From the IMG/VR virus record IMGVR_UViG_3300025127_000171, positions 1 to 29,894 of that record: a stretch of 29,894 nt of DNA. The stretch is one strand, 5' to 3'. The notes beneath the pieces were generated by a model, which did no database searches, had not been told where the DNA came from, and saw only the letters and a list, made by a program, of their open reading frames with translations. A program made the position numbers and the translations under genes. The DNA comes from a virus. Below, piece after piece: positions 2,695 to 7,187 of this stretch; the first letter of the stretch is position 1, and each line of letters opens with the position of its first letter.

Positions 2695-2734
2695 CTAAAT
2701 AGTTAATAATACAGATATATAGAGTATTTAGATG
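2692..2734. promoter_or_regulatory. Symmetric divergent start/promoter region between gp4 and the tail-tube-fold gene
   Basis: The region is bounded by a perfect 10-bp inverted repeat, CATCTAAATA (2692-2701) and TATTTAGATG (2725-2734). It includes both start codons (minus ATG at 2694-2692, plus ATG at 2732-2734). CTAAATAG on + (2695-2702) lies 29 bases before the plus ATG, and CTAAATAC on minus (2731-2724) lies 29 bases before the minus ATG. Each could be a late-type -10 box resembling the T4 TATAAATA element. No sigma70 -35 box is evident. The late-promoter role is inference; the symmetry is seen directly. Confidence 0.5.
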
Positions 2735-3391
2735 GTCTCACCTAAAAAGATATCTGATTTCAAACCAATATTGACCAATGTGGCACAAACGTCGCATTAT
2801 CAAGTATTTTTTGATGGTTTGTCACCAGATTTATTTACATTTTTAGGACAAAAAAATGTGGATAGAAGATTTATAACTGAAAATTCAGGATTATTATGTA
2901 GTTCTGCTTCAATACCCGGCAGTGCGTTGGCAACGAGTGACATCTTCGGTAACTTTACTGGAGTTCAAGAAAAGTTTGCACATACAAGAATTTTTTCAGA
3001 GATATCATTAGAGTTTTATGTTGACAAAAATTATAAGATGATAAAGTTTTTTGAACATTGGATGGATTATATCTCAAGTGGATCTGAAAAAAGACGAATC
3101 ACTTCGTTTTCAAAAGCATCACCAGGATATTTCTATCGTATGAGATATCCAAGAGGAAACTCAGGTTATAAGTGCGACAAAACTAAAATTGTTAAGTTTA
3201 ATATTGACTATAAGAAAGAAATAGAGTATACTTTTATAGGTATGTTTCCAATTAATTTGGCATCCACTCCTGTTCAATATGGAAATTCAGATGTATTAAA
3301 GGTTAATTGTACTTTTAATTATGAGAGATACATCGCCGGTGAATCCACTAACCTTAGTATTAATAGAGGACAATCTGAAAATAATTCCTAA
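2732..3391 (+). CDS. Tail-tube-fold protein (gp54/gp19-like; probable tail-tube initiator)
   Basis: 219 aa. The pattern fits contractile-tail tube proteins. An N-terminal strand, HYQVFFDGL, is followed by the loop-strand segment LLCSSASIPGSAL, equivalent to T4 gp19 FQCKATALPAG. Next come a beta segment, ISLEFYVDKNYKMIKFFEHW (compare gp19 WTVTVMND...RQKFVDW), and a final strand set, EYTFIGMFPINLASTPVQY then VNCTFNYERYI (compare gp19 IKGLWPTNVGELQLDW then FEVTLALDYW). T4 gp19 is 163 aa and gp54 is 320 aa. This protein is intermediate and sits next to hub genes rather than with the sheath, which favours a gp54-like initiator over the major tube. It is the first gene of the plus-strand virion block, read from the divergent region, with a 33-base gap to gp26. 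Which of gp19 or gp54 it replaces is uncertain. Confidence 0.65.
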   Translation: MVSPKKISDFKPILTNVAQTSHYQVFFDGLSPDLFTFLGQKNVDRRFITENSGLLCSSASIPGSALATSDIFGNFTGVQEKFAHTRIFSEISLEFYVDKNYKMIKFFEHWMDYISSGSEKRRITSFSKASPGYFYRMRYPRGNSGYKCDKTKIVKFNIDYKKEIEYTFIGMFPINLASTPVQYGNSDVLKVNCTFNYERYIAGESTNLSINRGQSENNS

Positions 3392-3424: not shown

Positions 3425-4141
3425 ATGCCTTTACCAAAAATTGCAACCCCAACGTATGAATTGGTTTTACCCTCATCAAATCGTAAGATAAGATATCGTC
3501 CCTTCCTTGTTAAAGAAGAGAAACTTTTAATTATTGCGATGGAGTCTGAAGATCAGAAACAAATTACAAATGCAATTAAAACTGTGATTAGTAATTGTAT
3601 ATTAACTCGTGGAACAAAAGTTGAGAAATTGTCCACATTTGATATTGAATATCTATTTTTAAATATTCGTGGTAAATCTGTGGGTGAAAGTGTGGAAGTG
3701 ATAGTGACTTGTCCTGATGATAATGAAACCCAAGTTCCTGTTGTGATTGATTTAGATGCAATCAAAGTCCAAACTGATCCTGAACATAAAGTCGATATTA
3801 AACTTGATGATAAATTAAGTATGAAAATGAAATATCCATCTTTAGGTGAATTTGTTAAGAATAATTTTGACGTTGACAATATCGGAGTAACTGAATCATT
3901 TGATATGATTGCTGCTTGCGTAGATCAAATTTATAGTGACGAGGAATCTTGGACATCATCCGACTGCACAAAGAAAGAATTGGCAGAATTTATTGAGCAG
4001 TTGAGTTCAAAGCAATTTAAAGAAGTTGAAAAGTTTTTTGAAACGATGCCTAAACTCTCTCATACGGTGAAAGTTGTTAATCCAAAAACTAAGGTTGAGA
4101 ATAAAATAGTTTTAGAAGGGTTAGCATCTTTTTTCGAGTAG
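3425..4141 (+). CDS. 26: gp26-like baseplate hub / tail-assembly chaperone
   Basis: 238 aa; T4 gp26 is about 208 aa. The N-terminus PTYELVLPSSNRKIRYRPFLVKEEKLLIIAMES is the recognisable start of the T4 baseplate-hub gp26 family (strand pair, RPF, KEEK helix). It is followed by TVISNCIL and the helix/strand pair FDIEYLFLNIRGKSVGESVEV. In T4-like phages gp26 is needed for hub assembly. Its position directly before gp51 and tape-measure-like genes parallels the G/GT chaperones of lambdoid phages. The end of the gene is unusual: codons 236-237 are TTT TTC preceded by T, giving a T TTT TTC heptamer six bases before a hairpin, with the zero-frame stop TAG (4139-4141) inside the spacer. Ribosomes slipping -1 there would make a 298-residue gp26-gp51 fusion (see 4129-4170). 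The upstream gap 3392-3424 has a TATAAT at 3402-3407 but no matching -35. Confidence 0.85.
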   Translation: MPLPKIATPTYELVLPSSNRKIRYRPFLVKEEKLLIIAMESEDQKQITNAIKTVISNCILTRGTKVEKLSTFDIEYLFLNIRGKSVGESVEVIVTCPDDNETQVPVVIDLDAIKVQTDPEHKVDIKLDDKLSMKMKYPSLGEFVKNNFDVDNIGVTESFDMIAACVDQIYSDEESWTSSDCTKKELAEFIEQLSSKQFKEVEKFFETMPKLSHTVKVVNPKTKVENKIVLEGLASFFE

Positions 4142-4170
4142 GTATGGCGCATACTGATCTTGCGTCATAC
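4129..4170 (+). other. Predicted -1 programmed ribosomal frameshift signal joining gp26 to gp51
   Basis: The slippery heptamer T TTT TTC occupies 4129-4135 in the correct register (zero-frame codons TTT 4130-4132, TTC 4133-4135). A 6-base spacer (4136-4141) ends with the gp26 stop TAG. A 10-bp stem follows: GTATGGCGCA (4142-4151) pairs with TGCGTCATAC (4161-4170), with one G-T wobble and a 9-nt loop. After a -1 slip the frame reads CGA GTA GGT ATG and continues in gp51 to the TAG at 4318-4320. That gives 237 + 3 + 58 = 298 residues. The gp51 ATG (4144-4146) is buried in the stem and has no Shine-Dalgarno sequence in front. Function is inferred from the classical layout of such signals. Confidence 0.8.
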
Positions 4171-4320
4171 TTCAAGATTAATTTTGCCTTGATGCAACAC
4201 CATAAATACTCTTTGACAGAGATTGAAAATATGATTCCTTGGGAAAAAGATGTATATGTTGCTCTTTTAGAACAGTATATTGAAGAGGAAAATTTAAAAC
4301 AACAACAAAGTAATTCATAG
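4144..4320 (+). CDS. 51: gp51-like baseplate hub assembly factor (GT 'T-domain' type tail chaperone)
   Basis: 58 aa if started at ATG 4144. The sequence has an N-terminal helix (DLASYFKINFALMQHHKYS) and then LTEIENMIPWEKDVYVALLEQYIEEENL. This pattern, a 'sl.ei..M.pWE..vy..LL' helix, is typical of the small second-frame domain of phage tail-assembly chaperones and of short gp51-like proteins in marine T4-like phages; T4 gp51 itself is much longer. It lies in the -1 frame relative to gp26, beginning two bases after its stop. The start codon is inside a strong hairpin with no ribosome site, so production as the C-terminal part of a gp26 fusion looks more likely than free initiation. Its stop overlaps the next gene's GTG by one base (TAGTG). 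The proposed job is to hold and deliver the following tape-measure-like proteins during hub assembly. Confidence 0.75.
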   Translation: MAHTDLASYFKINFALMQHHKYSLTEIENMIPWEKDVYVALLEQYIEEENLKQQQSNS

Positions 4321-5855
4321 TGGCAAAACCATTACCCAAAATAAATCAGACAAATACATCTACGAAGATGTCGGGGAAGGCTAGTGCTGCTCCAAAAAGA
4401 AGAGGAAGACCAAAGAAGTTTCAGACACTTGCAGAGGTTGAGGCAGATATAAACGCTAGAGAATTAAAAAAAGTTCAAGAGAAATTAAGAAAAGAAAAAT
4501 TAAAAAAAAGAACGATAAATCCAAAGAAAGTTTTCGGAAAATCTGAAGTTACCAAGGTTGAACCTCAACAAAATATGGATTCAGTGTTGAAGTCCATTGC
4601 GAGTATTCAGGAGACAATAAAAAAATTACAATCTATCGTTATCACTGATGCAGAAGAAAAGAAAAAACAGCAAGCAAAAGAGAATCGTCAACAATTAATA
4701 GAAGGAGAAAACGAAAAAAGAAAAAAAAAGGAGGGATTATTAGAAAAGGTTCCAGAGAGATTGAAAACATCTCTACTTTCACCTATTAAGGCAGTTGGAG
4801 AACAAGCAAAAGGTATATTGTCTAGATTGATGGAGGCGTTTACGCTCATATTCACAGGATGGTTAGCAGATAAGGGACTTAAAGCAATCCAAGCATTTAT
4901 GGATGGTGATAAGGAAAAACTTAAGAGTATTGGAATGAATGTTCTTGCAGGTCTTGGTATCGTGGGTAGCGTATTCCTTGCTATGAATTTAGGTATGTTG
5001 GCGTTGCCAGCAATAATAGCAAAAGTGATTGGTGTGATAGCGACAGTTGGAGGAGCGATTATCGGATTCTTATTGTCACCGCCAGGTTTAATTACGTTAG
5101 CGATTGCTGCTGGCGTTGGTGCAGCGATACTGGGAATTAAAAAATTATTTCAACTAGGAAGAGGTGGTAAAGATGCCGAAGAAGCAAGACATAAGAACAA
5201 AATGATGCTAAGAGAGGCAGGTATAAAAGCATATAAAAAGGACGGAGCTCGTGTGATGCGTGATGGGAAGGAGGTATTTGTTAAGACTGAGGATTTGACT
5301 GAGGAAGAAAGATCTGCAAGAGAAGCATTTGAGATAGAACAGCAACGTATTAAGGATGTTACTAAGGAAAAAAATAAAGAGGTAAGGGGAACTTTTGATA
5401 GAGTAACAAATGAAAGGGAATCTATGGATAACCCTGAGTGGGCAAAAATTATGGCAGTTCAGGACTTGGATAAAAGAAGAAAATTAATAAAAGACTTTAG
5501 AAAAGAAACGCAACAAATAGTTAATGATGAGAAAAAACGCATTAAAGAGGAGGCAAAGGGAGTATATTCAGGTTCATCAAGTGAAGGAGGTGAGATAACA
5601 CCTACATCTTCAGATAATACTAAAATTAAATCAGTCTCATCAAGTGATGTAAAAATCTCCAGTTCGACTACAGAAAAGAATTTGGGAGAAATCAATACTG
5701 ATCCTAAAATAACAATTAATAATTTAGATCAAAAAACTCAAACTGACCAACCCCTAAAGTCTGGTGATCAAACGAATGTCCCTCTTATCGCATCATCAGA
5801 TGCAACTAATTTCTATTCAACATATTCTCAAACACAATATGGAGTGGTGGTATAA
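4320..5855 (+). CDS. Tape-measure-like baseplate hub protein A (gp29 position), with AT-hook-like N-terminus
   Basis: 511 aa with a GTG start overlapping the gp51 stop. Residues 1-140 are extremely Lys/Arg/Glu-rich and helical, with an RRGRPKK AT-hook-like motif at about residues 27-33. A hydrophobic helix, AFTLIFTGWLADKGLKAI, lies at about 173-190. A long Ala/Gly/Ile/Leu hydrophobic block (about 205-278) follows, then charged helical sequence and a Ser/Thr-rich C-terminus. Hydrophobic segments inside a long helical protein, placed straight after the G/GT-like chaperone pair and before gp27, are what is expected of a tape measure. T4 gp29 holds this position and is 590 aa. Direct similarity to gp29 is not obvious, so the assignment rests on context and composition. 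The next gene starts at the very next base and shares the same architecture. Confidence 0.6.
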   Translation: MAKPLPKINQTNTSTKMSGKASAAPKRRGRPKKFQTLAEVEADINARELKKVQEKLRKEKLKKRTINPKKVFGKSEVTKVEPQQNMDSVLKSIASIQETIKKLQSIVITDAEEKKKQQAKENRQQLIEGENEKRKKKEGLLEKVPERLKTSLLSPIKAVGEQAKGILSRLMEAFTLIFTGWLADKGLKAIQAFMDGDKEKLKSIGMNVLAGLGIVGSVFLAMNLGMLALPAIIAKVIGVIATVGGAIIGFLLSPPGLITLAIAAGVGAAILGIKKLFQLGRGGKDAEEARHKNKMMLREAGIKAYKKDGARVMRDGKEVFVKTEDLTEEERSAREAFEIEQQRIKDVTKEKNKEVRGTFDRVTNERESMDNPEWAKIMAVQDLDKRRKLIKDFRKETQQIVNDEKKRIKEEAKGVYSGSSSEGGEITPTSSDNTKIKSVSSSDVKISSSTTEKNLGEINTDPKITINNLDQKTQTDQPLKSGDQTNVPLIASSDATNFYSTYSQTQYGVVV

Positions 5856-7187
5856 ATGGCAATCGCAGCAGCAGCATTAAAATTAGGAACCATAATTGGA
5901 AAGGCAGGTGGAGCGATCGCGAAAGGTGGTAAGTTAGCGATGAAGAAAGGTGGTGCTGTATTAAAAAAATCAAAGAAAGTAGCAGGTAATGTTAAAAAGG
6001 CGGCAGTTAAAAAAAGAAAGATAAACAAAGACACCTTCATGTCAAAAGAAAAGACAAGAAAGAAAAAACTAGAACAAGATAAAAGAAGGCAAGAAGAGGA
6101 ATCATTAGAGCAGACAAAAAAATCAAAACAAAAACCCTCTGCAAAAAAAACCATGTCTAGGGGTGGTGGTATATTACAAAGATTAATTACGTTTATATCA
6201 ACTATTATTGTTGGTTGGGTGCTTGTTAATTTACCAAAAATTATTGATTCTGTTAAAGGAGTTATAAAAAAAATTAAAGGTATCTATGATAAAATAGTTG
6301 GATTTTTTGGATCTGTTGGAGAATTTTTCAGTGGTATAAAGGATTCTATTGGTGATGTAATTAATAAATTTAAGAATATTGATTTTTCTAAAATAGGGAA
6401 CAAAATAAAAGAGAAAATTAATGGATTGAAAGAGGGATTCACTAATATGATTGATAAAATAAAAGGTGGATTGAATATATTAAGAGGAAAGAAAAAAGAA
6501 GATCCTAATAAACTTGCAAAATCAGGATTTGCAGGTGACTCAAAGGCACAACAAGGTGATGCTCAGAAAAAAATAAGTGAAAGTGACAGCAAACTAAGCG
6601 AACTCAGCACTGAAACAGATACTTTATCAAAAGATACCAATACTTTGAGTACAGATTTTGATGATAATATATCAAAAGGAAAAGATGAGTTAAAAAAAGC
6701 TGGGTTAGATGCAAACTTTAAGACTGGTGATGAAAAAAAGGTAGTAAATCCAGAGAAAGTGATGAATAAGAAAACAAATTCTGAAAATGTAAGAGTGCAA
6801 GAGTTTAACAAAAAAAAGAAAGATATAAAAAATTCAAGTAAAGATGGTAATTCTACTATTCAAACATTAGATGGTAAAACATTTAAACCTGGCGATAAAG
6901 ATTATGCAGAGCAACTTAACAAAGCGAAGGGAACGGTTACAAATACTATGAAAAATTTAACTGCGGATGGTAGTAAATTTATTCAAAAAAGAAAAAATCC
7001 AAACCTAACTAGTTCTATAACACCTAAAACTATGAATAAAAATATAGTTGTTGATAATATCATAGCAAAACAACCTGTTGTTACAGGGCAATCTGGGGGT
7101 TCATCAGATTCAGGTTTGATTGTAATTGAAAAACAATTAAATAATACTATTAAGGAAAATCTTTTACTCGACGCAGCGTACACATAA
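5856..7187 (+). CDS. Tape-measure-like baseplate hub protein B
   Basis: 443 aa, very Lys-rich. The first 100 residues are a Gly/Ala/Lys stretch and then a highly basic region. A hydrophobic segment, LQRLITFISTIIVGWVLVNL, is at about residues 107-126. It is followed by amphipathic helical sequence with repeated Ile/Phe/Gly (about 127-210) and a polar, low-complexity Ser/Asp/Lys/Asn C-terminal half. The hydrophobic part lines up with protein A (L.RL....F..I..GW......K.I), suggesting an old duplication. ATG directly follows the previous stop, and its own stop overlaps the gp27-like ATG (TAATG), so both are translated in one operon with the hub. The likely role is a second hub or tape-measure component inside the tail tube. 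There is no motif for enzymatic activity. The call is based on composition, position and weak paralogy. Confidence 0.55.
   Translation: MAIAAAALKLGTIIGKAGGAIAKGGKLAMKKGGAVLKKSKKVAGNVKKAAVKKRKINKDTFMSKEKTRKKKLEQDKRRQEEESLEQTKKSKQKPSAKKTMSRGGGILQRLITFISTIIVGWVLVNLPKIIDSVKGVIKKIKGIYDKIVGFFGSVGEFFSGIKDSIGDVINKFKNIDFSKIGNKIKEKINGLKEGFTNMIDKIKGGLNILRGKKKEDPNKLAKSGFAGDSKAQQGDAQKKISESDSKLSELSTETDTLSKDTNTLSTDFDDNISKGKDELKKAGLDANFKTGDEKKVVNPEKVMNKKTNSENVRVQEFNKKKKDIKNSSKDGNSTIQTLDGKTFKPGDKDYAEQLNKAKGTVTNTMKNLTADGSKFIQKRKNPNLTSSITPKTMNKNIVVDNIIAKQPVVTGQSGGSSDSGLIVIEKQLNNTIKENLLLDAAYT

Follow-up and report, generated by a model that had tools for sequence, protein, structure and literature searches.

The window analysed here, the whole 29,894-nucleotide stretch of the IMG/VR virus record IMGVR_UViG_3300025127_000171, carries downstream of a tail tube gene two reading frames, gp26 and gp51, whose junction has the layout of a candidate -1 frameshift site. 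The features of this region are the following:

2732-3391, + strand: tail tube protein, upstream of gp26 (Pfam Phage_TTP_2, E=1e-18; PHROG 45).
3425-4141, + strand: gp26 zero-frame product, putative short tail assembly chaperone (TAC-N), assigned from Pfam, PHROG and AlphaFold.
4105-4320, + strand: open -1 frame; the codons from 4135 would form TAC-C, the domain at the C terminus of the fusion, with the stop TAG at 4318-4320.
4129-4135, + strand: candidate slippery heptamer T_TTT_TTC in the gp26 frame (T_TTT_TTC or T_TTT_TTA in 183/192 relatives).
4136-4141, + strand: 6-nt spacer GAGTAG, including the zero-frame stop TAG at 4139-4141.
4142-4170, + strand: putative stimulatory hairpin with a 10-bp stem and a 9-nt loop, seen in the fold, in covariation and as a structure peak over 77 junctions.
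4144-4320, + strand: gp51 in its conventional annotation, which begins at an internal ATG (PHROG 634, E=6e-28; ATG absent in 69/144 relatives).
4320-5855, + strand: 511-aa protein that has a GTG start and, in its centre, a hydrophobic block; tape-measure-like by position, with no Pfam or PHROG family match.
5856-7187, + strand: 443-aa protein, likewise tape-measure-like by position, that has a single hydrophobic segment and a weak PHROG tape-measure match (E=0.06).

The gp26 ORF encodes 238 aa, and its 3′ codons (TCT TTT TTC GAG TAG) place T_TTT_TTC in the zero frame. The hairpin begins 6 nt 3′ of the heptamer, stimulatory structures being expected at about 5-9 nt. Its arms, GTATGGCGCA (4142-4151) and TGCGTCATAC (4161-4170), form 10 bp including one G-U, and RNAfold gave -16.2 kcal/mol (z = -3.4), which was equalled by 1/200 shuffles. 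An earlier note on this DNA had described the heptamer, the spacer with the stop, the stem and the loop, and the description was correct base for base. Its claim that the -1 frame is open into gp51 was also borne out at the sequence level, the predicted read-through product being 298 aa long and including the peptide SFFRVGMAH. The heptamer by itself is unremarkable: TTTTTTC occurs 25 times on the two strands of the AT-rich window, compared with about 19 expected. What stands above chance is the register, the hairpin, the open -1 frame and chiefly the conservation. Composition alone was insufficient to exclude a chance heptamer, which was ruled out by conservation in relatives.

Relatives were gathered through gp26 protein similarity only (80 and 95 IMG/VR loci, plus annotated isolates). 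An in-frame T_TTT_TTC was found within the last gp26 codons at 176 of the 192 junctions and T_TTT_TTA at 7, the remainder being three Tevenvirinae, five Ackermannviridae or related Vibrio phages and one record with a run of five T. Among isolates beyond the 192, KVP40 and the Pseudomonas phage Astolliot also have T_TTT_TTC, and other last bases occur in Rhizobium phage P10VF (T_TTT_TTG), Pseudomonas phage pf16 (T_TTT_TTT) and Pseudoalteromonas phage XG4 (T_TTT_TTA). The P-site codon is TTT, preceded by a codon ending in T, in 169/169 distinct site-bearing gp26 genes; at the A site, 162 of these have TTC and 7 have TTA. In the alignment of junctions from marine T4-like phages, which had been proposed as a check, the heptamer type is invariant.

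Slippage of RNA polymerase on the T run could also produce the fusion, by a transcriptional frameshift, and the conservation of the run of six T speaks for it. Six T is, however, short for slippage by a bacterial RNA polymerase, the register (P-site TTT, A-site TTN) stays constant although the heptamer may end in any of C/A/G/T, and a structure at ribosomal distance would be left unexplained. We consider this origin highly improbable. An overlapping constraint acting without any frameshift, such as a need for the C-terminal Phe-Phe or a transcription attenuator hairpin, would agree with the conserved Phe-Phe of the protein and with the presence of the hairpin, but it is the codon choice that is fixed, not the residues alone. 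TTT makes up 69% of the Phe codons elsewhere in gp26, and both TTT and TTC occur at most of the other conserved Phe positions. Moreover, the TTC to TTA change at the A site alters the residue and retains the slipperiness of the heptamer, there is no T run immediately 3′ of the hairpin, and the -1 frame past the site is open and conserved. Such a constraint is scarcely credible as the whole explanation.

Some junctions depart from this pattern. In L192, a Menderavirus phage of Stenotrophomonas, the run (at about position 1751) has five T, not six, resulting in a +1 run-on of 280 aa. This is likely a homopolymer sequencing error, because two close relatives (L086 and L191) carry six T. The gp26 homologues of Ackermannviridae and related Vibrio phages (L089, L091, L092, L094 and L096) have a -1 frame C domain downstream, and their sites are N_NNT_TTC or N_NNT_TTT (G_GCT_TTC, A_CTT_TTT, A_CTT_TTC, G_GTT_TTC), with poor P-site re-pairing. 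It is possible that this group uses a degenerate or different shift site. L092 and L094 have no ATG at the gp26 stop. Scans of viral contigs with gp26 of SRB7757 and gp26 of Ackermannviridae as queries yielded no relatives.

Covariation of the hairpin was assessed in the 72 nearest distinct junctions, picked on gp26 protein similarity and not on pairing. In this set 82% of the stem cells pair; the figure is 76% for shuffles and 26-45% for slid registers. Both sides are changed in 39 cells, where shuffles give 14.6 (0/500). The clearest covarying pair, columns 21 and 35, is U-A, G-C or A-U; here the third codon position of Ala tracks the second position of Glu/Ala/Val in the -1 frame. Unrelated hairpins occupy the same location in other clades (GCCCUC/GAGGGC in the P-HM1 group, GAUGCAC/GUGCAUC in the S-H34 group). 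Over 77 non-redundant junctions, 38-nt windows offset from the heptamer by 0 to +5 nt had z-scores between -2.6 and -3.0, with the peak (mean z -3.0) at +3 to +5 nt past it; outside offsets 0 to +10, z was never below -0.9, and it was near zero at most of the other offsets. The expected conservation of the stem was found in most relatives, in the form of compensatory changes or of another hairpin in the same place. The hairpin is not universal, because in a minority (L023, L044, L087 and L172) it is weak or absent. A pseudoknot between the loop (GAUCU) and a downstream AGAUU was considered and rejected: its helix did not stand out clearly from shuffles (30/500), and it had full length in only 4 of 50 intact-stem sequences.

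The -1 frame was compared at 144 distinct junctions. Where the start of gp51 is annotated, 75 of them encode Met and the other 69 encode Leu or Phe; in 17, no ATG is found within the first 24 codons. On this comparison the gp51 ATG is dispensable. Immediately 5′ of this position the -1 frame reads FF-R-[IVL]-[ASG] almost throughout; its Arg is retained, whereas the overlapping zero-frame codon drifts among Gly, Ala, Val, Glu and others.

These data bear on the possibility that gp51 is a separate small gene, expressed by termination-reinitiation at the ATG 2 nt past the gp26 stop. The spacing (TAG-GT-ATG) is compatible with such coupling, and about half of the junctions (the 75 with Met) have an ATG at that place. 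The other 69 lack it, however, the 17 junctions mentioned above offer no early substitute, a Shine-Dalgarno 4-mer precedes 0/75 of the ATGs, the ATG sits in the stem, conserved -1 frame residues precede it, and the invariant heptamer is left unexplained. Termination-reinitiation is therefore improbable as the source of gp51. The earlier note had also pointed to the position of the ATG in the stem and to its missing ribosome site. The former stands, the ATG (4144-4146) falling within the 5′ arm; the latter is a weak argument, because a Shine-Dalgarno sequence is likewise absent from the start of gp26 itself.

Because the ATG is often lost and conserved -1 frame residues lie upstream of it, marine gp51 is, on sequence comparison, the C-terminal domain of a gp26-gp51 fusion and not a separate gene. 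In the window, gp51 as annotated (4144-4320) is more likely the C-terminal part of this predicted fusion, and restart at its ATG could at most add to the fusion output. On the comparative evidence, the gp26/gp51 junction is almost certainly a programmed -1 frameshift site.

The T-even phages (T6, Melville, EnA02 and Aeromonas phage 25) provide a natural comparison. Their gp26 is homologous to the marine short form, and their gp51 (249-250 aa) aligns along the marine fusion. In a six-sequence search, a profile of the marine fusion matched T-even gp26 over its N part only, ending at Phe-Phe (E about 1e-23), whereas T-even gp51, e.g. that of EnA02, was matched at positions 23-283 (E 1e-19). A profile of the C domain only matched T-even gp51 (E 4e-10 to 4e-9) and had no match to T-even gp26 in the same search. 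Unlike in the marine phages, gp26 and gp51 of T-even phages are two genes on opposite strands, and gp26 lacks the heptamer, ending GAA TTC TTT or GAA TTC TTC. To judge from this arrangement, T-even phages require no frameshift for gp51. Frameshifting in most of the sampled T4-like lineages and two separate genes in T-even phages would be two routes to the same pair of chaperones, one short and one long. The alignment agrees with the report that gp51 of cyanophages and marine vibriophages lacks the first ~200 residues (Sullivan et al. 2010, PMC3037559).

gp26 matches Pfam T4_baseplate (PF12322, E=2e-75) and PHROG 150, and membership in the gp26/gp51 family was supported by both PF12322 homology of gp26 and gp51 homology. 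The AlphaFold model of gp26 has a pLDDT of 87. In a PDB fold search with this model the highest-probability match was the HK97 chaperone 2OB9, which is non-significant (prob 0.66, E=0.73, 78 columns), and an HK97-like chaperone fold of the modelled gp26 is suggestive only; the gp26 sequence had no match among solved structures. We infer from the architecture and the T-even comparison that the gp26/gp51 products are tail assembly chaperones. This reading, already put forward in the earlier note, gains support from T-even gp51, which consists of a gp26-like part and the C domain, the HK97 fold match being weak. For the downstream genes, which the same note took to be tape-measure-like, position and hydrophobic segments fit and suggest that the 511-aa and 443-aa proteins may be tape measures. 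Neither protein had significant similarity to T-even gp29 (T6 gp29).

In the proposed mechanism most ribosomes would read gp26 to the TAG and release the 238-aa short chaperone. Some, aided by the hairpin that lies 6 nt downstream of U_UUU_UUC, would slip back one base on this heptamer and yield the 298-aa gp26-gp51 fusion. Acting together in tail tube assembly, the two forms would most likely coat and deliver the tape-measure protein of the gene just downstream, a role modelled on gpG/gpGT of lambda. We regard it as very probable that a programmed -1 frameshift generates short and fused chaperones, which most likely serve tape-measure delivery. The likeness to lambda lies in the short form accompanied by a -1 frameshifted long form, seen here at the sequence level, and in lambda these proteins are encoded between the tail tube and tape-measure genes. 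The lambda heptamer is G_GGA_AAG, not U_UUU_UUC, and the searches made revealed no protein sequence homology between gpG/gpGT and gp26/gp51.

The next gene begins with a GTG that shares a base with the stop of the -1 frame (TAGTG, 4318-4322), and similar overlaps or contacts were found in P-SSM2, P-HM1, KVP40 and other relatives. Because of this overlap, coupling of the next gene to frameshifted ribosomes suggests itself. That it is mainly these ribosomes that re-initiate at the GTG, setting the output of the tape-measure gene and tying it to the amount of long chaperone, is a tentative idea that we think rather unlikely to be correct.

An abstract on T4-like tail assembly chaperones is said to report conservation of frameshifting across several T4-like groups and to name genes 26 and 51 as those used by T4. 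As cited in PMC12846349 and PMC10274946, Vladimirov, Gautam and Davidson identified these chaperones in 2022 (Virology 566:9-15); the former refers to their work when stating that the TAC-N genes of T4-like phages carry slippery poly-T sequences, the latter (PRFect) for separate short and fused genes in some T4-like phages. To the extent that these citations represent it, the 2022 study concerns the same genes, gp26 and gp51, and the same pair of short and long chaperones. Frameshifted chaperones are thus, as so cited, already known in long-tailed phages, including some T4-like phages, and the earlier note, which was not aware of a description for marine T4-like phages, needs correcting in that frameshifting of T4-like tail chaperones was reported in 2022. 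We have not seen the hairpin covariation, the repeated loss of the gp51 ATG or the A/G/T forms of the heptamer stated elsewhere, the text of Vladimirov et al. 2022 lying outside this comparison.

The gp26/gp51 junction is a concrete and testable case of predicted frameshifting in abundant ocean phages. Many cyanophage and vibriophage records list gp51 as a separate gene or omit its annotation, and our data point instead to a domain at the C terminus of a frameshift product. In the public records of Sf-CH1b, S-CAM1 and ACG-2014i (L196, L197 and L098) the gp51 region is unannotated, and the -1 frame domain is intact.
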